From assembly GCF_016598595.1 (NCBI RefSeq), contig NZ_CP066786.1, forward strand, positions 3,433,501 through 3,497,500: 64,000 bases of DNA, written 5' to 3'. This DNA comes from Martelella lutilitoris (GTDB taxonomy: Bacteria > Pseudomonadota > Alphaproteobacteria > Rhizobiales > Rhizobiaceae). Under the pieces are notes generated by a model. It did not search any database and was not told the DNA's origin. It saw only the letters and a list, made by a program, of their open reading frames with translations. The position numbers and the translations under genes are program-made. This document shows, in pieces, positions 2,075 through 16,821 of the stretch; position 1 is the stretch's first letter; each line of letters opens with the position of its first letter.

Positions 2075-2766
2075 CCAGGGACATCGCAGACGACGCCCCC
2101 CACCTATTGATCGTCGACGACGACACCCGTATCCGCACGCTTCTGAAACGCTATCTCGGCGAACAGGGCTACAGGGTTTCAACGGCCGGAGATGCGGCCG
2201 AGGCGCGGCGCAAGCTCGAGGGCCTCGATTTCGACCTTCTAGTGCTCGACGTGATGATGCCGGGCGAGGACGGCGTTTCGCTCACGCGCGACCTGAGCAG
2301 GCTCCGTCCGATCCCCGTGCTGCTCTTGACCGCCAGGGCCGAGGCCGATGCCAGGATCGAGGGGCTTGAGGCGGGCGCGGACGACTATCTCCCCAAGCCC
2401 TTCGAGCCGCGCGAGCTTCTGCTGAGGATCAGCAACATCCTGCGCCGGGCGCAGGCGCCGAAGACGCCGGCGATCGAGCAGATCATGTTCGGGCCCTACA
2501 CGTTTTCGCTCGGCCGCCGCGAATTGAAGAAGGGCGCGACGCCGATACGGCTTACCGAGCGGGAACAGGACATCATGTCGATGCTGGCGCAAAAGGCCGG
2601 CGAGACCGTCGCGCGCTATGATCTCGTCAGCTCGGACGCCGAGATCAACGAGCGCACGATCGACGTTCAGATCAACCGGCTGCGGCGCAAGATCGAGAGT
2701 GATCCGGCAAACCCGCGCTACCTGCAGACGGTGCGCGGCATCGGCTATCGTCTGAACCGGGAATAA
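2071..2766 (+). CDS. OmpR-family response regulator
   Basis: A 231-residue two-domain regulator. The receiver domain has the acidic pocket IVDDD (residues 14-18), phospho-acceptor Asp60 in LVLDVMMPGEDG, the switch Thr in LLLTARAEA and the conserved Lys in PKPFEPREL. The C-terminal half is a winged-helix DNA-binding domain ending in INRLRRKIESD and VRGIGYRL, the OmpR/PhoB signature. It is coupled to the MarR gene upstream and followed six bases later by its presumed partner kinase. Its regulon cannot be inferred here. Confidence 0.95.
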   Translation: MTRDIADDAPHLLIVDDDTRIRTLLKRYLGEQGYRVSTAGDAAEARRKLEGLDFDLLVLDVMMPGEDGVSLTRDLSRLRPIPVLLLTARAEADARIEGLEAGADDYLPKPFEPRELLLRISNILRRAQAPKTPAIEQIMFGPYTFSLGRRELKKGATPIRLTEREQDIMSMLAQKAGETVARYDLVSSDAEINERTIDVQINRLRRKIESDPANPRYLQTVRGIGYRLNRE

Positions 2767-2772
2767 CAGGTC

Positions 2773-4212
2773 TTGAGACAACTCAGCCAAAGCCTGAAGG
2801 ATGCGTGCGGGAAACTTGCCGACAGACTTCACACGGCCTATCGCGCCCTTGTCCGGCTGCCGGGCCTCCGGCATCTCTACTACGCCTACAAGACAGTGGC
2901 CCGCTGGACCCATCACCGCCTGCCGCGCGGCCTCTTTGCCCGTTCGCTGCTGATCATCATCATGCCGATGCTGCTGCTTCAGGCCGTCGTCGCCACCGTC
3001 TTTATGGAACGGCACTGGCAGATGGTCACCCACCGCCTCGCCGACGCGGTGACGGGCGATATCGCCGCCATCATCGATCTCATCGAAACCACCGATCCCG
3101 ACTATCAGGACGAGATTGTCGCGATCGCCGACAGCGACATGGGGCTGAGGGTCGCCATCGAACCAGACGGCAAGCTGCCCCCTCCCCTGCCGAAGCCCTT
3201 TTTCGGCCTGCTCGACCAGGTTTTGGCGGAATTGATCTCCGCCAAGATCGGCCGCCCCTTCTGGATCGATACGCTCGGCGATTCACGTTTCGTGGAGATC
3301 CGCATCAAGCTCGACGACGGCATACTGCGGATCTTCGCCCGTCGCTCGATGACCTATGCCTCGAACACGCATATTTTCATCCTGTGGATGGTCGGCACCT
3401 CGCTGGTGCTGATCGGGATCGCAACGCTGTTCCTGCGCGGCCAGATCCGCCCGATCCTCAGACTCACCCAGGCGGCGGAGGACTTCGGCAAGGGCCACCG
3501 CTCCTCGCGCCCTTTTACCCCGCGCGGGGCGATCGAGATCCGACGCGCCGGCCTTGCTTTCATCCTGATGCGCGAGCGCATCGAGCGGCAGATCGAGCAG
3601 CGCACCACCATGCTGAACGGCGTCAGCCACGACCTGCGCACCATTCTGACGCGGTTCAAGCTGCAGCTCGCCCTGATCGGCGACAGCCCCGAGGTCGAGG
3701 CCCTCAATCTCGATATCGAGGAAATGCAGAAAATGCTCGAGGGCTATATCGACTTTGCCCGCGGCGACGCCGAGGAGGTCACCGGAACGGCCAGCCTTTC
3801 TGCCCTCTTCAAGCGCCAGAAGGAGGATTTCGAACTGTCGGGAAAGTCGCTGGACTACGTCATCGTCGGCGATGATGCGGTGACGGTGCGGCCCAATGCC
3901 TTCGCGCGCCTCGTCGCAAACCTTGCCTCCAATGCCAAGCGCCATGCCAACCGGCTCGAAATCACCGCCGAGCACGGCGAGAAATGGCTGACGATCTCCT
4001 TTGACGATGACGGGCCGGGCATCGCCCCGGACATGAGGGAGGAAGTCTTCAAGCCGTTTCTGCGGCTCGACAATGCCCGCAACCTCGATTCCTCGGGCAC
4101 CGGCCTTGGCCTTGCCATTGCCCGCGACATCGCGCGCGGACACGGCGGCAATGTGGTGCTCTCGGAAAGCCCGCTCGGCGGGCTCAGGGCAACCATCCAT
4201 ATTCCGTGCTGA
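2773..4212 (+). CDS. Membrane sensor histidine kinase (EnvZ-like)
   Basis: Predicted partner of the preceding response regulator. About 55 cytosolic residues precede a first membrane helix (roughly 57-77, SLLIIIMPMLLLQAVV), then a periplasmic domain of about 115 residues, a second helix (about 197-218), HAMP, the dimerisation box NGVSHDLRTILTR with His286, the N-box LVANLASNAKRHAN, and the ATP-lid motifs DDGPGI and GTGLGLAIARDIARGHGG. The start codon is TTG, six bases after the regulator's stop; the long cytosolic N-terminus is typical of rhizobial homologues. The signal sensed is unknown. Confidence 0.93.
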   Translation: MRQLSQSLKDACGKLADRLHTAYRALVRLPGLRHLYYAYKTVARWTHHRLPRGLFARSLLIIIMPMLLLQAVVATVFMERHWQMVTHRLADAVTGDIAAIIDLIETTDPDYQDEIVAIADSDMGLRVAIEPDGKLPPPLPKPFFGLLDQVLAELISAKIGRPFWIDTLGDSRFVEIRIKLDDGILRIFARRSMTYASNTHIFILWMVGTSLVLIGIATLFLRGQIRPILRLTQAAEDFGKGHRSSRPFTPRGAIEIRRAGLAFILMRERIERQIEQRTTMLNGVSHDLRTILTRFKLQLALIGDSPEVEALNLDIEEMQKMLEGYIDFARGDAEEVTGTASLSALFKRQKEDFELSGKSLDYVIVGDDAVTVRPNAFARLVANLASNAKRHANRLEITAEHGEKWLTISFDDDGPGIAPDMREEVFKPFLRLDNARNLDSSGTGLGLAIARDIARGHGGNVVLSESPLGGLRATIHIPC

Positions 4213-4217
4213 ATTGT

Positions 4218-4559
4218 TCAGTGAAGCTTCGCGCCGTTTTCGACCGGCTTGTCGATTGCCGCCAGCACGATGTCGCCATTGGCATCGGCCATGCCCAGCG
4301 TCAGCACTTCCGAGCGGAAGGGCCCGATCTGGCGGGGCGGGAAATTGACCACCGCCATCACCTGCCGGCCGACAAGGGATTCGGGCGTATAATGCACGGT
4401 GATCTGCGCGGACGATTTCCTCACGCCGATATCGGGGCCGAAATCGATCTTCAGCTTGTAGGCCGGCTTGCGGGCCTCCGGAAAGACCTCCGCCTCGATG
4501 ATTGTGCCGGCGCGGATATCGACCTTCAGGAAATCGTCAAAGGTGATCTCGTCCGTCAT
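4218..4559 (-). CDS. csaA: tRNA-binding-domain protein, CsaA-like
   Basis: A 113-residue protein made of a single OB-fold tRNA-binding domain. The family signatures FLKVDIRAGTI near the N-terminus, KLKIDFG and VVNFPPRQIGPFRSEVLTLG match CsaA, a small cytosolic protein with reported chaperone and tRNA-binding activity. Its start abuts the proC stop, so the two are cotranscribed. It converges with the histidine kinase gene with only five bases between the stops. Confidence 0.9.
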   Translation of the reverse strand: MTDEITFDDFLKVDIRAGTIIEAEVFPEARKPAYKLKIDFGPDIGVRKSSAQITVHYTPESLVGRQVMAVVNFPPRQIGPFRSEVLTLGMADANGDIVLAAIDKPVENGAKLH

Positions 4560-5381
4560 TCAGCCCGCCAGTTCGCGCGATCGGTTGCAGGCGGCCTCCA
4601 GCGCCCGGTCAAAGACCGGCTGCAGGCCGTCCTCGGCCATCAGGTGCTCAAGCGCCGCCGCCGTCGTGCCGCCGGGCGAGGTGACATTCTTGCGCAGCGT
4701 TCCGGCGTCGTCTTTCGAGCCGTCCATCAGCGCGCCCGCGCCGATCACCGTGCCGCGCGCAAGCCGCATGGCAAGGTCCTCGTCAAGCCCGAGCTTGCGG
4801 CCGGCCTCGGCCATGCACTCGACCAGGTAGAAGGCATAGGCCGGGCCGCTGCCGGAAATCGCGGTGACGGCGTCGATATCGGCTTCCTTTTCCACCCACT
4901 CGACCTGGCCGACGGCGGCAAGAAGCGTATCCGCCTTTTCGCGTCCGGCCTCGGTGACGAGGCCATTGGCAAAGGCGCCGATGACGCCGCGACCGACCAT
5001 GGACGGCGTGTTGGGAATGGTGCGGATCATCGCCAGCTTTCCGAGCCGCTCCTCGAAATAGGAGAGCGTCTTTCCGGCGGCGACCGAGATGATCAGCGTA
5101 TTCTCGTCTATCACCGGGGCCAGCGTGTCGAGCACGGCGTACATGACCTGCGGCTTGACGGCGAGAACCAGGATCTTTGCCTTGATATTGTCCGGCGGCG
5201 CCACGTGGTGGCGGATGCCGCTGCGATCGAGCAGGCTCTTGATGCTGTTGGAAGGATTCGGATCGATCACCGTGATCGCCTCGCGACGCACCCCGCCCGC
5301 GACCCAGCCCGAAAGCAAAGCGCCACCCATATTGCCTGCGCCGACCAGCACCAGCCCTTCGATTTCGCCGAGGTCTGCCAT
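4560..5381 (-). CDS. proC: Pyrroline-5-carboxylate reductase
   Basis: ProC makes the last step of proline synthesis, reducing pyrroline-5-carboxylate with NAD(P)H. The Rossmann loop VLVGAGNMGGALLSGW lies at the N-terminus, and the C-terminal dimer and substrate region contains ISGSGPAYAF and VTSPGGTTAAAL, both diagnostic. About 273 residues, as usual. ATG at 5381 was preferred to the one at 5396 because homologues begin near MADLGE. The first codons sit within the 3' end of the upstream ybjN-like gene's neighbourhood, and csaA follows at once, suggesting one operon of three genes. Confidence 0.96.
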   Translation of the reverse strand: MADLGEIEGLVLVGAGNMGGALLSGWVAGGVRREAITVIDPNPSNSIKSLLDRSGIRHHVAPPDNIKAKILVLAVKPQVMYAVLDTLAPVIDENTLIISVAAGKTLSYFEERLGKLAMIRTIPNTPSMVGRGVIGAFANGLVTEAGREKADTLLAAVGQVEWVEKEADIDAVTAISGSGPAYAFYLVECMAEAGRKLGLDEDLAMRLARGTVIGAGALMDGSKDDAGTLRKNVTSPGGTTAAALEHLMAEDGLQPVFDRALEAACNRSRELAG

Positions 5382-5883: not shown

Positions 5884-6302
5884 GAACCACCTTTTCCGGT
5901 TGCCCGCTTCCGGCTCCGGCCAGTTTCCTGACCGGCCTCCCCGCGATGCGCCCACCGGCTTAATTTCGAATCATCTATTAAAATCAGTGTATAACGCGCA
6001 AACGCCAACACCAGCCCCCAGGCCGAGGCTTTGCCGTCATCCGCCACTTTCGCGTTCGGAAAATGATTCAGGGGCAGGGCCTAAATGATTCAGTGAATTG
6101 CCTTTTTTAACCATGTCCACAGGCCGGATTTTTTTTGGGGGAAGTCGCTGAAAGAATGCGCAAACACCGTTTCCGGGCTTGGGGACGCCCAGTTCCGATG
6201 ACAGCGCTGGCTTGCAGGCGTTGAAAAGAAGGCCTGCGCAGGGCCTGCCGAAACGGCCGATGCGCCCGCCTTCAATGCCGGCGCGTCCATGGAATGCGTG
6301 AA
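5884..6302. other. Long intergenic region with a tandem 11-base motif
   Basis: About 420 bases without a convincing gene, between the ybjN start and the clpB 3' side. The bases AAATGATTCAG occur at 6061-6071 and again at 6083-6093, exactly 22 bases apart. A poly-T run lies at 6127-6136. A 13-codon frame (6260-6301) ends two bases before the plus-strand terminator; its product is not recognised. AT-rich sequence near 5961-5995 includes TATAAC and could carry promoters in either direction. Nothing else could be assigned. Confidence 0.5.
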
Positions 6303-6328
6303 GGCCGCCCCTGGAGGCGGCCTTTTTT
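6303..6328 (+). terminator. Rho-independent terminator reading rightward
   Basis: Seven-base-pair GC stem GGCCGCC/GGCGGCC with a six-base loop, followed by six T residues on the plus strand. It faces the 3' end of clpB, so it does not end clpB; no protein gene upstream on the plus strand accounts for it. A non-coding RNA from the preceding intergenic region is the simplest explanation. Confidence 0.75.
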
Positions 6329-6352
6329 GCTGCTTTGTCCGGATTGCCGTAA

Positions 6353-8956
6353 TCAGGCGACGTCCTGCAAACGCCCGGAGAGCGTGAACAGCAACCGGTC
6401 GGAGCCCGCATCGACCTTGACGTGAGCGCCGTCGGCGATCTCGCCGGCAAGGATCTTCTCGGCCAGCGGATCCTGGACCGCGGTCTGGATCACGCGCTTC
6501 AAGGGGCGCGCGCCATAGGCCGGGTCATAGCCCTTCTCGGCGAGCCAGTCGCGGGCTTCCGGCGTCAGCTCGATCTCGATCTTGCGATCCGACAACAGCT
6601 TTTCGAGCCTGCCGAGCTGAATATCGACGATCGCGCCCATATCCTCGCGATGCAGCCTGTGGAACAGGATGATGTCGTCGACGCGGTTCAGGAACTCCGG
6701 CCGGAACGATCCCCGGACGACCTCCATCACCTGTTCGCGCGCGGCCGAACTGTCCTCATTTTCGCCGAGCTGGGTCAGGAACTCCGAGCCCAGATTGGAT
6801 GTCATGATGATGATCGTGTTGCGGAAGTCGACCGTGCGGCCCTGGCCGTCAGTCAACCGACCATCGTCAAGAACCTGCAGCAGCACGTTGAAGACATCCG
6901 GATGGGCCTTTTCGATCTCGTCGAACAGGACCACCTGGTACGGCCTGCGGCGCACCGCCTCGGTCAACATGCCACCCTCGTCGTAACCGACATAGCCGGG
7001 AGGGGCGCCGATCAGGCGGGCAACGGAGTGTTTCTCCATATATTCCGACATGTCCATGCGCACCATCGCCGTCTCGTCGTCGAAGAGGAAGCGGGCGAGC
7101 GATTTCGTCAGCTCCGTCTTGCCGACGCCGGTGGGGCCTAAGAACATGAACGAGCCGATCGGCCGGTTCGGATCCTGCAGGCCTGCGCGGGCACGGCGAA
7201 CGGAACGCGAGACCGCCTGCACGGCGTCGCCCTGACCGACAACCCAGCGGGCCAGTTCGTCCTCCATCCGGAGCAGCTTCTCGCGCTCGCCTTCCAGCAT
7301 CTTGTCGACCGGGATACCGGTCCAGCGGGAGACGACCTGCGCGATATTGTCCGGCGTGACGACTTCCTGAAGGATGGAATCGGTGACCGTATTGTCCTCG
7401 GATTCGGCCTCGGCCAGTTCCTTTTCCAGCTTCGGGATCGTGCCATAGGCAAGCTCGCCGGCCTTCTGGTACTCGCCGCCGCGCTGGGCGATCGCAAGCT
7501 CGTTGCGGGCCGCGTCAAGCTGCTTCTTCAGATCGGCAGCCTTGTTGAGCTTGTTCTTTTCCGACTGCCAGCGCGCCGTCAGCGTGTCGGCTTCCTCCTC
7601 CAGAGAGGCGAGTTCGCCCTCCAGCTTGGAAAGCCGGTCCTTCGACGCGGTGTCCGTTTCCTTCTTCAGCGCCTCGCGCTCGATCTTCAGCTGGATGATC
7701 CGGCGATCGAGTTCGTCGAGTTCTTCCGGCTTGGAATCCACCTGCATGCGCACGCGGCTTGATGCCTCGTCCATCAGGTCGATGGCCTTGTCCGGCAGGA
7801 AGCGATCGGTGATGTAGCGGTTCGAAAGCGTCGCGGCGGCCACAAGCGCACTGTCGGAGATGCGCACCTGATGGTGCTGCTCGTATTTCTCCTTCAGGCC
7901 GCGCAGGATCGAGATCGTGTCCTCGACCGTCGGCTCGGCAACCATCACCGGCTGGAACCGTCGGGCAAGAGCCGCGTCCTTTTCAACATGCTTGCGGTAT
8001 TCATCAAGCGTGGTCGCGCCGACGCAATGCAGCTCGCCGCGGGCAAGCGCGGGTTTCAGCAGGTTGGACGCATCCATGGCGCCATCGGCCTTCCCGGCGC
8101 CCACCAGGGTGTGCATCTCGTCGATGAAAAGGATGATCTTGCCAGCTTCGGCCTGAACCTCGTTCAAAACCGCCTTCAGCCGTTCCTCGAACTCGCCGCG
8201 ATATTTCGCGCCCGCAATCAGCGCGCCCATGTCGAGCGCCATCAGCTTCTTGTCCTTCAGGCTTTCCGGCACGTCGCCATCGACAATGCGCAAGGCAAGG
8301 CCTTCCGTGATCGCCGTCTTGCCGACGCCGGGCTCACCGATCAGAACCGGATTGTTCTTGGTTCGGCGCGAGAGCACCTGGATCGTGCGACGGATTTCGT
8401 CGTCGCGGCCAATCACCGGGTCGAGCTTTCCGTCGCGGGCGTCCGCCGTCAGGTCGCGCGCATATTTCTTCAGCGCGTCATAGCCTTCCTCGGCGCTGGC
8501 GCTGTCGGCGGTGCGGCCCTTGCGGATCTCGTTGATGGCGTCGTTCAGCCCGTTCGGCGTCACGCCGGCGCCCTCCAGCGTCTTCGCGGTCGAGGCGGAT
8601 TTCTCGATCGCAAGCGCCAGAAGCAACCGCTCGACGGTGACGAAACTGTCGCCGGCCTTCTTTGCCGCTTCTTCGGCGGTGTTGAAAACCTTCGCCAGCG
8701 GCTGGGAGAGATAAATCTGTCCGTTCCCGCCGGAAACCTTGGGGATCCGGGCGAGCGCCGCGTCATTGGCGAGGCGCGCCTTCTTGGCATCGCCCCCTGC
8801 CCGCTCGATCAGCGAGGCGGCCATGCCCTGTTCGTCGTCGAGCAGCACCTTCAAGAGGTGCTCGGCGCCGAACTGCTGATGGCCTTCGCCGAGAGCGAAT
8901 GTCTGCGCGGACTGCAGAAAGCCGCGCACGCGTTCGGAATATTTCTCGATATTCAT
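6353..8956 (-). CDS. clpB: ATP-dependent chaperone/disaggregase ClpB
   Basis: An 867-residue Hsp100 protein that rescues aggregated proteins together with DnaK. It has the N-terminal Clp repeat domain (about 1-145), first AAA+ module with GEPGVGKT near residue 205, the long coiled-coil middle domain rich in Glu and Lys (about 405-525) that separates ClpB from ClpA, and the second AAA+ module with GPTGVGKT near 606 and the sensor/arginine region [15 protein letters not shown]. The length is full. A heat-shock-type promoter lies about 90 bases upstream. Confidence 0.98.
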
Positions 8957-11000: not shown

Positions 11001-11029
11001 GCGTCATCAAAACGCAGTCAAAACGTCAT
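11001..11029 (+). promoter_or_regulatory. Triple Pho-box-like array upstream of alkaline phosphatase
   Basis: Three 7-base units, GCGTCAT, ACGCAGT and ACGTCAT, are each separated by the same four bases CAAA, giving an exact 11-base period. The PhoB consensus is CTGTCAT repeated with 4-base spacers. The outer units match five of seven positions; the middle one is poorer. The array lies 71-99 bases before the phosphatase start, where PhoB-dependent promoters are expected. Confidence 0.7.
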
Positions 11030-11099
11030 CGAGATGTAATGCCGCGGGACTATCGCGGATGCGCAGCTATCTTCACACACTCTTTACCAAGAGGTTTCC

Positions 11100-12873: not shown

Positions 12874-12900
12874 GGGACCGGGCGGACGACGCCCGGTCCT
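12874..12900. repeat. Hairpin repeat, copy 1
   Basis: A 27-base unit with the stem ACCGGGCG/CGCCCGGT just after phoA. An almost identical unit (25 of 27 bases) lies at 13118-13144, on the far side of the inverted-repeat element. It could act as the phoA transcription end, although no T run follows. Confidence 0.6.
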
Positions 12901-12930: not shown

Positions 12931-13086
12931 GGCGTCATCCTCGGGCTTGTTCCGAGGATCTAACCACGGTTCCGCACGGGCGGAGTAGCGTTTTGGAAGA
13001 AGTTGTATTTCAAATGACTTCTCGTCCGAGACGTCTGTCGAGTAGAGGCGTGCTTAGGTGCTCGGGACAAGCCCGAACATGACGGC
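12931..13086. repeat. Inverted-repeat intergenic element (RIME-like)
   Basis: A 156-base element bounded by inverted arms: the left arm 12931-12959 contains CCTCGGGCTTGTTCCGAGG and the right arm 13058-13086 contains CTCGGGACAAGCCCGA in reverse. Each arm also folds on itself. Arms of this sequence are widespread between genes in Rhizobiales. The interior holds no coding sequence. Confidence 0.75.
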
Positions 13087-13117
13087 AGAGATTGGAGCAG
13101 GCTTTGTCAACCAGCTG

Positions 13118-13144
13118 GGGTCCGGGCGGACGTCGCCCGGTCCT
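13118..13144. repeat. Hairpin repeat, copy 2
   Basis: Second copy of the 27-base hairpin unit, 244 bases after the first and in the same orientation, directly upstream of the exported-protein gene at 13168. The two differences are compensating positions on either side of the stem. Confidence 0.6.
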
Positions 13145-13167
13145 TTCCTGTCAGGAGAACTGATCCG

Positions 13168-13626
13168 ATGACCACTCTGCCCTTTTCCCGCCGCAGACTG
13201 CTTGCAACCCTCGGCGCGCTCGGCATCGGCCTGGCCTCCCGCCCCGGGCTTGCCGCCACGGCCGAGTTGAATTTCGACGAGCTCTACGGCTCCTTCAGCC
13301 CGCTCGGCCTCGAATTTTCCGACAAGGTCAAGGACCTCACCGGCGAAAAGGTCTCCATACGAGGCTTCATGGCGCCGCCGCTGAAGGCCGAGGCGCAATT
13401 CTTCGTGCTCTCCGAAATTCCGATGGCGCTCTGCCCCTTCTGCTCTTCGGATGCCGACTGGCCGGAAAACATCGTCGTCGTCTATCTCAACAGAAAACAG
13501 ACCTTCGTCCAGCCGAACCAGATGATCGAGGTGACCGGCACGCTTGATCGCGGCTCCTGGGTGGATCCCGAAACCGGCTTCGTCAGCCAGCTGCGCCTCA
13601 GGGACGCGCGCTACAAGACCGTCTGA
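13168..13626 (+). CDS. Exported protein, DUF3299/ZrgD-like
   Basis: A 152-residue protein with an N-terminal export signal that includes SRRRLLATLGALG, a twin-arginine-like pattern, and cleavage near PGLAAT. The mature part has GEKVSIRGFMAPP, then FFVLSEIPMALCPFCSS and a C-terminal beta-rich segment, the layout I associate with DUF3299 proteins such as ZrgD of the Vibrio zinc-regulated zrg locus. The CPFC motif could bind metal or be redox active. It is the first gene of a tight unit with an ABC ATPase and an FtsX-type permease. Function is inferred from this context only. Confidence 0.72.
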   Translation: MTTLPFSRRRLLATLGALGIGLASRPGLAATAELNFDELYGSFSPLGLEFSDKVKDLTGEKVSIRGFMAPPLKAEAQFFVLSEIPMALCPFCSSDADWPENIVVVYLNRKQTFVQPNQMIEVTGTLDRGSWVDPETGFVSQLRLRDARYKTV

Positions 13627-13659
13627 CCCTGCGCCCCGCAACTCCGAAAGCCGCCGCCC

Positions 13660-14337
13660 ATGTTGCCCCTTCGCCTCGAAGATGTCGCCGTTTCCTTTCC
13701 CGGTCTCTCCGCGCCGGTGCTCAGCATCCCCGTCCTCGAAATCGCCCCCGGCGAGCGCGTGGCCGTCACCGGCCCCTCGGGCTCCGGCAAGAGCACGTTC
13801 GTCAACATCATCACCGGGCTGGAAAAGCTGAAGACCGGCCATGCAAGCTGGGGCGACACCGATCTCGCCGCTCTTCCCGAAGGCAGGCGCGACCGCTGGC
13901 GCGGCGAGAATATCGGCATCGTGATGCAGGACTTTCATCTCTTTCCCGGCCTCTCCGCCTTTGACAACGTGCTTCTGCCCGCCCGCCTCGCCCATGCCGC
14001 CGGCCGGTCGCGTCTTGAGCGGGCGAAGGCGCTGCTTGAAACCGTCGGCATCGCCCGTCACGATCAGAAGATCGAGACCATGTCGCGCGGCGAGATGCAG
14101 CGCGTCGCCGTTGCCCGCGCTCTGCTGCGCGAGCCCGCCATCATCGTCGCCGACGAGCCGACCGCAAGCCTCGACAGCGAGGCTGGCGCGGTTGTCGGCG
14201 AACTGCTTCTGGAGCTTGCGAAGAGCCTTGGCAGCACGCTGATCATCGTCTCCCATGACGAGCGTCTGGTGGCGCCGATGGATCGCAGGATTTCGCTTCT
14301 CGCCGGCGTGATCGCCTCTGACGAACGGAAGGGCTGA
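13660..14337 (+). CDS. ABC transporter ATP-binding protein, LolD/MacB type
   Basis: A 225-residue ATPase with Walker A GPSGSGKSTFVN, Q-loop VMQDFHLFPGLSAFDNV, Walker B IIVADEPTASLD and the switch His in IIVSHDERL. This belongs to the LolD/MacB/FtsE group that drives mechanotransmission by FtsX-type permeases rather than substrate channels. The signature loop reads MSRGEMQRVAVARAL instead of the usual LSGGEQQR, a notable change. It is followed three bases later by its permease and preceded by the exported protein. Confidence 0.92.
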   Translation: MLPLRLEDVAVSFPGLSAPVLSIPVLEIAPGERVAVTGPSGSGKSTFVNIITGLEKLKTGHASWGDTDLAALPEGRRDRWRGENIGIVMQDFHLFPGLSAFDNVLLPARLAHAAGRSRLERAKALLETVGIARHDQKIETMSRGEMQRVAVARALLREPAIIVADEPTASLDSEAGAVVGELLLELAKSLGSTLIIVSHDERLVAPMDRRISLLAGVIASDERKG

Positions 14338-14340
14338 GCC

Positions 14341-15753
14341 ATGTTCCGCTTCATCTTCTCCGATCTGAAACGCCTGTGGGCCGGATCGATCGTCATCGTG
14401 CTTCTGATCGCCCTTGCCACCGCGCTCGGTGTCACCATCACGCTGCAGGAGCGGGCGCTGCGGCTTGGGTCTGCCCGGGCGTCGGAGAAATTCGACCTTG
14501 TCGTCGGCGCGCCCGGCAGCGAGACGCAACTGGTGCTCTCCTCCGTCTTCCTGCAGCCTTCCGACCTGCCGCTGATGGATGGCGACCTGCTGCCCGAACT
14601 CAATGACGATCCGCGCGTTGCCTGGGCGGCGCCGATCGGCTTCGGCGATTCCTATGCCGGATACCCGATCGTCGGCACCACCACGGCCCTCATCGAGGCA
14701 ACCGTGCCGGGCTTTGCCGAAGGCGGGATATTCGTCCACGAGGGCGACGCGGTGATCGGCTCGGCCGTTGATCTGGCCGTCGGGTCGGAAATCAAGCCGA
14801 TGCACGGCGCGGCGGAGACCGGCGGCCACACCCATACCGAGCTTGCCTATCACGTCACCGGCAGGGCAGAACCCACCGGCACGCCGTGGGATCGCGCGAT
14901 CCTGGTACCGATCCAGGCGGTCTGGCACATCCACGGCCTCGGGCATGAGCATGAAACCGAGGCGGACCATGACCACGACGATGATCATGATGCGGAAGCG
15001 GATCACGATGATGACCACCAGAACGCGGCCGCGATCGTCGCGGCCGCTGATCACCATGATGACGACCACGACGCGCATGCGGAGGACGACCCCCATGATG
15101 ACGACCATGGTCACGCCTCCGGCGAACACGACGCCGGGGACCACGACGAGAACGAACATCACCATGGCGCCGAGGCCGCAGCGCCCATCGACGAGCACTG
15201 GCACCGTGGCGAGACACCCGGCTTGCCCGCCATTCTGGTGAAACCGAAATCGATTGCCGACGCCTACCGGCTGCGCCAGGAATACCGCGAGGCCGACGGC
15301 ACCGTGGCGGTTTTCCCGGCCGAGGTGCTGACGCGCCTTTACGCCACGCTTGGCGATGCGCGGCAGGTGCTGACGGCGATCGCCATCGGCGCGCAGGTGC
15401 TGGTCGCTGCCGCGCTGATGCTGGTGACCGTCATCCACGTGTCCCAGCGCCGGCGCGAGATCGGCGCGCTCAGGGCCTTCGGCGCGCCCCGCAGCGCGGT
15501 GTTCTCCATCGTCTGGCTCGAACTCTTCTCGCTGATCGGCCTTGGCATCGCGATCGGCTACGGCGCCGGCTTCCTTGCGGCGCGAGCGATCTCGCGATCG
15601 ATCATGGCCGAGCGCGGGGTCGACATGCCCGTCGCCTTCGTCGGCTCTGACGCCGGCAACGCGCTGCTCCTTGTCGTCGCCGCCGCCATCCTTGCTGCGC
15701 TTCCGGCCCTGCTGGCCTACCGCCAGCCTCCGGCCGCCGCGCTGAAGGGCTGA
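14341..15753 (+). CDS. FtsX/MacB-type ABC permease with His/Asp-rich periplasmic loop
   Basis: A 470-residue permease. One N-terminal membrane helix (about 15-33) is followed by a periplasmic domain of about 310 residues and three C-terminal helices (about 348-370, 388-415, 435-462), the FtsX/LolC plan. Inside the periplasmic domain, residues about 196-285 form a low-complexity stretch with more than 20 His and many Asp and Glu, including HDHDDDHD and EHHHG. Such stretches bind zinc or related ions. The gene pairs with the ATPase before it. In the Vibrio Zrg system a separate His-rich protein is present; here the His-rich part is in the permease. Confidence 0.9.
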   Translation: MFRFIFSDLKRLWAGSIVIVLLIALATALGVTITLQERALRLGSARASEKFDLVVGAPGSETQLVLSSVFLQPSDLPLMDGDLLPELNDDPRVAWAAPIGFGDSYAGYPIVGTTTALIEATVPGFAEGGIFVHEGDAVIGSAVDLAVGSEIKPMHGAAETGGHTHTELAYHVTGRAEPTGTPWDRAILVPIQAVWHIHGLGHEHETEADHDHDDDHDAEADHDDDHQNAAAIVAAADHHDDDHDAHAEDDPHDDDHGHASGEHDAGDHDENEHHHGAEAAAPIDEHWHRGETPGLPAILVKPKSIADAYRLRQEYREADGTVAVFPAEVLTRLYATLGDARQVLTAIAIGAQVLVAAALMLVTVIHVSQRRREIGALRAFGAPRSAVFSIVWLELFSLIGLGIAIGYGAGFLAARAISRSIMAERGVDMPVAFVGSDAGNALLLVVAAAILAALPALLAYRQPPAAALKG

Positions 15754-15876
15754 GACGCCGGACCGACGCCGCGCGCGCCGCGCCAGGCTTGACACCCCCG
15801 CAGATGCGGAACATTTTCGCCGCAGCGGTTCTCCCTCGCGGTCTCCTTCCGAACGCTGCCGCTGCGAAAGCCCGTC

Positions 15877-16821
15877 ATGTATGAAATCTTCAACAATGTC
15901 GTCCCGATCTTCTCCCTTATCCTGATCGGCTGGGCGGCGGTCCGCCTGCGCTACATGAGCGCCGACAATGCCGGCGTGCTGACGGGCTTTGTCTTCAAGA
16001 TCGGCCTGCCGCTTCTGCTCCTGCGCACCATTGCCAGCGCCGATTTTCAGAATACCGGACCGGTGAAGATCTGGATCGCCTATTTCGGCGGCGTCGCCAT
16101 TGCCTGGGCGGCAGCGGCGCTGATCTCCCGCATTGTCTTCCATCGGGACCCGGCTTCCGCCGTAATCATCGGCCTTTCGGGGACCTTTTCCAATATCGCG
16201 CTTCTGGGCATCCCGCTTGTCAGCCATGTGGCCGGCGATGCGGCCCTTGTCGCGCTGTCACTGGTGCTTGCGATCCACATGCCGGTGATGATGGTGACGG
16301 CGACCGTGCTGGTCGAACGGGCAAAGGCCCACGAGGGGGGCGCGATCAGCAATCCGGCGAAGGTGTTCGCCACGATCGGCTACAACCTGATCACCAGCCC
16401 GATCGTCATTGGCCTTGCGGCAGGCGCGCTGATGCATCTCTTTGCCATCCCGGTCGCTGGCCCTGTCGGAACTGTGATCAACATGCTCGCCGGCATGGCG
16501 GCCCCCGTCGCGCTGGTTGCGATCGGCATGACGCTGACGCAGTACAAGGTCGCTGGCAATGTCGGCCTGTTTTCGACGATCACCTTCATCAAGCTGGTGC
16601 TGATGCCGGCAACCGTGTTCCTCATCGCCACGGCGCTGGGCCTGTCGCATTCGACGGTCGCCGGCATCGTCCTGACGGCCGCCGCCCCCTCGGGCGTCAA
16701 CGCCTTCGTGCTCGCCAACCAGTTCGGGACCGGCAAGAACATCGCCGCCTCAACGATCACGCTGACGACGGCGCTCGGGGTTCTGACGGTCAGTTTCTGG
16801 GTTTTGCTGCTCGGCTATTGA
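15877..16821 (+). CDS. AEC-family (auxin efflux carrier-like) transporter
   Basis: A 314-residue integral membrane protein with about ten helices in two repeated halves. The opening FNNVVPIFSLILIGWAAVR and the Pro-bearing helix LGIPLVSHVAG and APSGVNAFVLANQFG near the C-terminus are typical of the AEC/Mem_trans family, which exports or exchanges small organic acids. Substrate unknown. A 120-base gap separates it from the ABC permease, so it may be transcribed separately. Confidence 0.87.
   Translation: MYEIFNNVVPIFSLILIGWAAVRLRYMSADNAGVLTGFVFKIGLPLLLLRTIASADFQNTGPVKIWIAYFGGVAIAWAAAALISRIVFHRDPASAVIIGLSGTFSNIALLGIPLVSHVAGDAALVALSLVLAIHMPVMMVTATVLVERAKAHEGGAISNPAKVFATIGYNLITSPIVIGLAAGALMHLFAIPVAGPVGTVINMLAGMAAPVALVAIGMTLTQYKVAGNVGLFSTITFIKLVLMPATVFLIATALGLSHSTVAGIVLTAAAPSGVNAFVLANQFGTGKNIAASTITLTTALGVLTVSFWVLLLGY

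Follow-up and report, generated by a model that had tools for sequence, protein, structure and literature searches.

The window, a stretch of 64,000 nucleotides, contains three closely packed genes and, 310 bases upstream on the same strand, a gene for an alkaline phosphatase (AP) that was absent from the earlier note on this DNA (Table 1). That note had described an exported CPFC protein, a LolD-type ATPase and an FtsX-type permease with gaps of 33 bases (genes 1 and 2) and 3 bases (genes 2 and 3), and our reading frames and domains bear this out with one adjustment. The gene 2 product matches Pfam ABC_tran, and its best NCBIfam model is LolD, at 153 bits against a curated cut-off of 308; because it scores below the cut-off, we call it LolD-like only. 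The N-terminus of the gene 1 protein is signal-like as read by eye. The gene 3 product has a Pfam match to the FtsX C-terminal domain (60.8 bits, cut-off 25.5) and is predicted to fold like LolC/LolE, MacB, HrtB and FtsX; this domain and the predicted overall fold place the trio among the type VII ABC systems. The more than 20 His residues claimed for permease residues 196-285 were there on counting: the stretch has 21 His, 24 Asp and 10 Glu, and the other 380 residues have 8 His (binomial tail 3e-16). Residues 212-268 are mostly predicted to be disordered (pLDDT below 50 at 212-215, 217-262 and 265-268). In every one of the 120 best homologues listed, which include the window permease, the most His-rich 90 residues contain 10 to 23 His, and the closest named homologue among the matches listed is from M. 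lutilitoris (86% identical). Weak Pfam or NCBIfam matches to SspB, TIGR03943 (E 0.08) and DUF1980_C (1 of 26 gene 1 relatives, 0.025) were set aside. Antisense to the trio runs an open frame of 1057 aa (13054-16227, minus strand), which looks like a GC-rich mirror frame and no gene.

Table 1. Features of the AP-trio locus, in positions of the window.
Feature	Position	Strand	Remark
Pho-box-like array, four TGTCAT-like units spaced 11 bases, upstream of AP	11002..11040	+	
AP, 585 aa, PF00245	11100..12857	+	Pfam 230.6 bits, cut-off 24.4
GC-rich hairpin after AP gene	12874..12899	+	sequence
Imperfect palindromic element between AP and trio	12933..13084	.	self-complementary match 68% over 161 columns
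Second hairpin copy directly before gene 1	13119..13143	+	sequence
Gene 1	13168..13626	+	exported OB-fold protein; invariant CPFC, RR-type signal
CPFC motif (gene 1 residues 89-92)	13432..13443	+	invariant in 26/26 aligned relatives
Gene 2, LolD-like ABC ATPase	13660..14337	+	Walker A residue 38, signature 142, Walker B 161
Gene 3, FtsX/MacB/LolC-type permease, 470 aa	14341..15753	+	
Permease stretch with invariant periplasmic H155, H165, D184, H198 (D103 lies before it)	14803..14934	+	61/61 permeases, three clades
His/Asp-rich stretch, permease residues 196-285	14926..15195	+	21 His per 90 residues

The AP carries a Sec-type signal, as judged by eye, and a complete metal and nucleophile set, with both zinc sites, the magnesium site and the serine nucleophile conserved. 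The nine active-site residues, whose metal-ligand and nucleophile roles we presume to be those of E. coli PhoA, are conserved in all 37 relatives of an alignment that left out short pieces and the decayed locus L108. The closest solved structure is 7tm9. Between the AP gene and gene 1, two near-identical hairpins flank the palindromic element. In M. lutilitoris (L001) the corresponding gap is 73 bases long, with a single such hairpin and no palindromic element. In the window strain, the inserted element and its hairpins may cut the trio off from the AP promoter.

Upstream of the AP gene, the array of Pho-box-like units agrees with 17 of 24 consensus positions, which 0 of 500 shuffles reach, for a motif that was picked after inspecting the sequence. 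The best two-unit site in the window is weak (10/14, shuffle p 0.07) when scanned with CTGTCAT-N4-CTGTCAT, which we take to be the Pho-box consensus. Across linked APs, sites of at least 11/14 occur in 14 of 28 (shuffle expectation 2.1%) and sites of at least 12/14 in 5 of 28 (0.2%). Two loci that a separate scan scores at 12/14 (L005) and 13/14 (L045) are missed by this one. Unlinked APs have sites of at least 11/14 in 4 of 9 cases, and none were found at 23 zrg-type operons with ZrgA or at 17 third-clade loci (see below). The best Zur-like palindrome scores 6/10 in the window and 5 to 7 of 10 across 14 loci, scores that stand without a shuffled control.

Among 121 genomes of the same family, counted at E<=1e-30 for both permease and AP, 22 have both, none has the permease alone, one has the AP alone and 98 have neither (Fisher p 3e-23, a value inflated by relatedness as the genomes are not independent). 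All 22 carry the AP upstream of the permease on the same contig and strand. In-frame stops interrupt the lone AP (G256), which lies beside a decayed permease remnant (L108), and a genome of the same genus (G320) has neither gene. More widely, an AP adjoins 51 of 55 examined trios of the AP-type permease clade, the 55 not being independent of one another. Of these linked loci, 33 were examined as DNA (the window, L001-L005, L008, L044-L050, L056-L058, L062, L103-L107, L109-L113 and L123-L127) and 18 from coordinates alone (16 family genomes, G450 and G592). They extend to Deinococcus (L049), Allomeiothermus (L050) and Paenibacillus (L008), the last with a different gene order. A permease match was present in 118 plasmid records, and 12 of the 16 plasmid regions examined have the AP upstream of gene 1, ATPase and permease (L044-L050, L123-L127). 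The other four are L128, in which a Peptidase_M20 gene (3187-4575) occupies the AP position before the trio, and the zrg-type regions L051-L053, the first of which has no ZrgA in its annotation table.

Besides L128, three of the 55 trios have no AP beside them. In L059, a DUF885 fragment (2389-3093, minus strand) with an HExxH-like HEGIPGHH lies at the AP position at a contig end. L054 has a trio of the AP clade in a genome with no AP, and the contig of L055 stops short of the AP position, that genome also having no AP. After the permease of L055 we noticed a His-rich exported ORF (5937-6494, minus strand) that by eye resembles a PCuAC copper chaperone and has no Pfam match. Genomes G078, G036 and G099 have the permease and no PF00245 gene; two of these genomes are 84% complete. 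In the phylum sample of 398 genomes, 19 have the same AP subfamily (E<=1e-60), 10 of them beside a permease, and the remaining nine (L094-L102) have no permease match at all. In the class sample of 240 genomes, more divergent APs were found in 11 (E<=1e-15), 5 linked and 6 unlinked. Since unlinked APs occur in both samples, AP can be produced without the machine, and the nine phylum-sample genomes rule out that it strictly needs it. The machine is thus nearly always accompanied by an AP, and an AP can occur without the machine.

Trees of the two partners suggest that the AP has been exchanged while the permease lineage was kept, in line with one machine having been paired repeatedly with different APs. 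In an AP tree of 43 rows, for which the program warned of long branches, well-supported branches force five or more changes of the linked state, and linked APs do not form one clade. The AP of L062 is sister to an unlinked AP (support 97/95); L048, L056 and L109 have APs that are placed among unlinked ones. In a permease tree of 56 rows, the permeases of these same four loci belong to the AP-linked clade, which has 29 rows and includes 3 that lack an AP, and only the Paenibacillus AP-linked permease (L008) lies outside it. M20 and DUF885 are hydrolase families with zinc-dependent members, and the common factor in the AP slot may be a secreted metal-dependent hydrolase. That the genes merely share a common locus or a phosphate promoter, with no functional tie, would agree with the existence of unlinked APs. 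We consider this very unlikely, given that the genes adjoin in different phyla and in two gene orders, that they decayed jointly and that different AP lineages were repeatedly paired with the trio.

Within the periplasmic domain of the permease, H155, H165, H198, D103 and D184 do not vary in any of 61 permeases drawn from all three clades (the H198 column is doubtful for L007). His-rich insertions adjoin these residues, following H198 in the window and others or, by eye, lying between H155 and H165 in L008, L048 and L062. The earlier note held that the function of a separate His-rich protein had merged into the permease. The counts support this statistically, a loop with at least 5 His being found in 0 of 16 ZrgA-linked permeases versus 19 of 45 others; however, both the His-rich permease loop and ZrgA are missing from Deinococcus, Allomeiothermus and some others. 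Because several AP-linked units are without the loop, it was ruled out as the functional core.

The 40 best-scoring class-sample loci comprise 4 with AP, 12 with ZrgA, 3 of the AP-type permease clade without AP and 21 with neither AP nor ZrgA match. Third-clade loci are found among those 21 and four named relatives, the loci for Pfam being picked by eye. Neighbors of the third-clade trios include ZnuA, ABC-3 and FUR (L068), ZnuA (L072), FUR (L060), cation efflux (L009), CobW (L074) and carbonic anhydrase (L065) genes, and this clade (L068, L072, L060, L009, L074) may represent one more zinc system, so far little described. Of additional note, a multicopper oxidase gene lies directly before the third-clade trio of L006 (5770-7170); from this neighbor, copper may be a further metal served by such a trio.

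These relatives bear on whether the trio serves zinc uptake, moving periplasmic zinc toward the cytoplasm or ZnuA as proposed for zrg and being co-induced because the AP drains zinc. Vibrio zrg is described as Zur-regulated, strongly induced in zinc shortage and helpful there (PMC9817125). The third-clade relatives in znu/zur loci and the invariant His common to all clades point the same way. Nevertheless, the unit includes no substrate-binding protein or importer-type permease (no ZnuA-type binding protein or ABC-3 permease was found among its proteins), and the genome has three ZnuA-family genes at other sites. The Zur-like palindromes peak at 7/10, a score read without a control, and the near-fixed AP neighbor would be left unexplained, so that we regard salvage or uptake as unlikely. 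The three ZnuA-family genes (G000:C1:167259, 1546551 and 4220311) indicate that ordinary zinc/manganese importers exist too.

The resemblance to the Vibrio zrg trio proposed in the earlier note stands for the ATPase and permease types and for the DUF3299 fold, and fails elsewhere. The gene 1 protein has the PA4066 fold, a likeness to DUF3299 at the level of fold and remote homology. The suggestion that it belongs to Pfam DUF3299 itself did not survive: 0 of 26 gene 1 relatives match it and 14 of 14 zrg-type proteins do, and none is found in the whole genome in a search positive for 4 of 4 controls. The claim that a separate ZrgA-like gene (DUF2796, PF10986) is missing did hold, for the genome has none and 4 of 4 control genomes have one. 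The 10 Zrg permease rows form their own clade (support 100/100), with the window permease outside. Without ZrgA and Pfam DUF3299 and with its permease in a separate clade, the window unit cannot be assigned to the zrg/PA4063-PA4066 group; the kinship is kept, and it is a distant relative outside that group.

A second proposal for this kin is that the machine is a MacB-like metallophore exporter. PA4064-PA4065 is modelled as a MacB-type exporter, genetics point to pyochelin-cobalt export, and the roles of PA4063 and PA4066 are called unclear (PMC11481552; PMC8561739). The fold predicted for the window permease is likewise MacB-like. We nevertheless find export of a metallophore extremely unlikely here: no MacB_PCD match at E<=1 was obtained among the unit's proteins, and no metallophore genes lie beside AP-linked units in the annotated records examined. 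The invariant His and Asp of PA4065-like permeases (L053, L052, L011) suggest, from sequence, that metal is handled by the permease itself, beside the published export model. Caulobacter znuGHI was dropped as a known relative, being described as an ABC-2 system (PMC4176598). The accessible parts of the accounts of PA4063-PA4066 and zrg and of a Zur review do not mention an AP-linked branch (PMC11481552, PMC8561739, PMC9817125, PMC6103462), and we found no paper on an AP-linked FtsX-type machine in the open-licence PMC literature.

Based on gene linkage, joint loss, exchange of AP lineages, invariant residues and folds, all of which we observe, we propose that the four genes form a unit that makes and metallates a secreted AP by means of an ATP-driven device induced by phosphate starvation, a reading to which we give a probability of roughly 45%. 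The linkage with AP in many bacteria suggests that the machine supplies the AP's metal; we infer zinc as this metal, the direction of its transfer and the AP as its receiver. The Pho-box-like sites of linked APs and the metal-gene neighbors of the third clade speak for this reading; against it stand the APs found without the machine, the three permease genomes with no PF00245 gene, the weak two-unit Pho site of the window, the insertion and hairpins before gene 1, and linked units that lack the His-rich loop. Phosphate starvation would induce the AP gene and a periplasmic zinc machine, in one gene run in most relatives. The ATPase pair and permease pair would not carry zinc through the membrane; instead, ATP cycles would be converted into motion of the periplasmic domain (mechanotransmission). 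Where present, the His/Asp-rich loop could gather and buffer loosely bound zinc, and the invariant His3/Asp2 set, which may form one metal site, would hold it. The OB-fold protein of gene 1, with its CPFC pair, may then take part in handing zinc over to apo-AP, which would receive the two zinc ions needed per subunit.

The same anatomy would equally suit removal, and the earlier note had offered stripping as an option: upon a shift in phosphate or zinc status, the machine could recover zinc from the AP or from the periplasm. We attach hardly any weight to it, because a stripper co-induced with AP synthesis makes little sense. The trio could also act on the AP by contact, as FtsEX does, through activation, membrane release or surface export, with its metal features secondary. 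This fits what its fold kin do: FtsEX, LolCDE and MacAB have hydrolases of the periplasm, lipoproteins or exported molecules as their targets. Such action appears rather improbable, however, in view of the invariant His set, the CPFC pair, the His-rich loop, the metal-gene neighbors of the relatives and the AP's own signal peptide, recognised by eye; exchange for distant AP lineages also fits a shared metal need better than a specific surface contact.

Taken more broadly, the AP-metallation reading may extend to a machine of bacteria, powered by ATP and dedicated to metallating the zinc enzymes that they secrete: its AP branch would be induced by phosphate starvation, its zrg and znu-adjacent sisters would put the same His3/Asp2 set to other zinc-related uses, and M20 and DUF885 enzymes could take the place of the AP. 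We offer this extension tentatively, as quite possible. If the machine is inherited, lost and regulated with AP, zinc acquisition by extracytoplasmic enzymes becomes testable in rhizobia, Paracoccus and Deinococcus, and phosphate starvation would be linked to envelope zinc supply. The invariant His common to PA4065 and ZrgB-type permeases would also give a handle on the role of those poorly understood Zur-regulated systems.

Among known systems, zrgABCDE of Vibrio and PA4063-PA4066 share with the window unit a LolD-like ATPase, an FtsX/MacB-type permease with the same invariant His and Asp, and an OB-fold periplasmic protein of DUF3299 fold; zrg differs in having ZrgA, Pfam DUF3299 and a permease of its own clade without the His-rich loop, whereas the window unit comes with an AP and shows Pho-box-like signs in place of Zur ones. 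The third-clade znu/zur-adjacent trios (L068, L072 and others) likewise combine ATPase, an often His-rich permease and an OB-fold protein, but they stand beside ZnuA, FUR, CobW or cation-efflux genes, without AP and in a separate permease clade. MacB, LolCDE, FtsEX and HrtBA, all type VII ABC systems, have in common with the window unit the predicted overall permease fold; they lack its AP and OB-fold partners and, to our knowledge, have no metallation role. E. coli PhoA-type APs have PF00245 and all nine active-site residues, as the window AP does, whereas most linked APs belong to a subfamily of their own that carries an additional N-terminal region. PhoA itself is not known to have such an ABC neighbor and presumably acquires zinc unaided. 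NosDFY-NosL loads copper into nitrous oxide reductase and ZnT5-ZnT6/ZnT7 load alkaline phosphatase in animal cells; although their transporters are of types unrelated to the window unit, both could be functional analogues of the unit we propose, as cases of dedicated metallation outside the cytoplasm.
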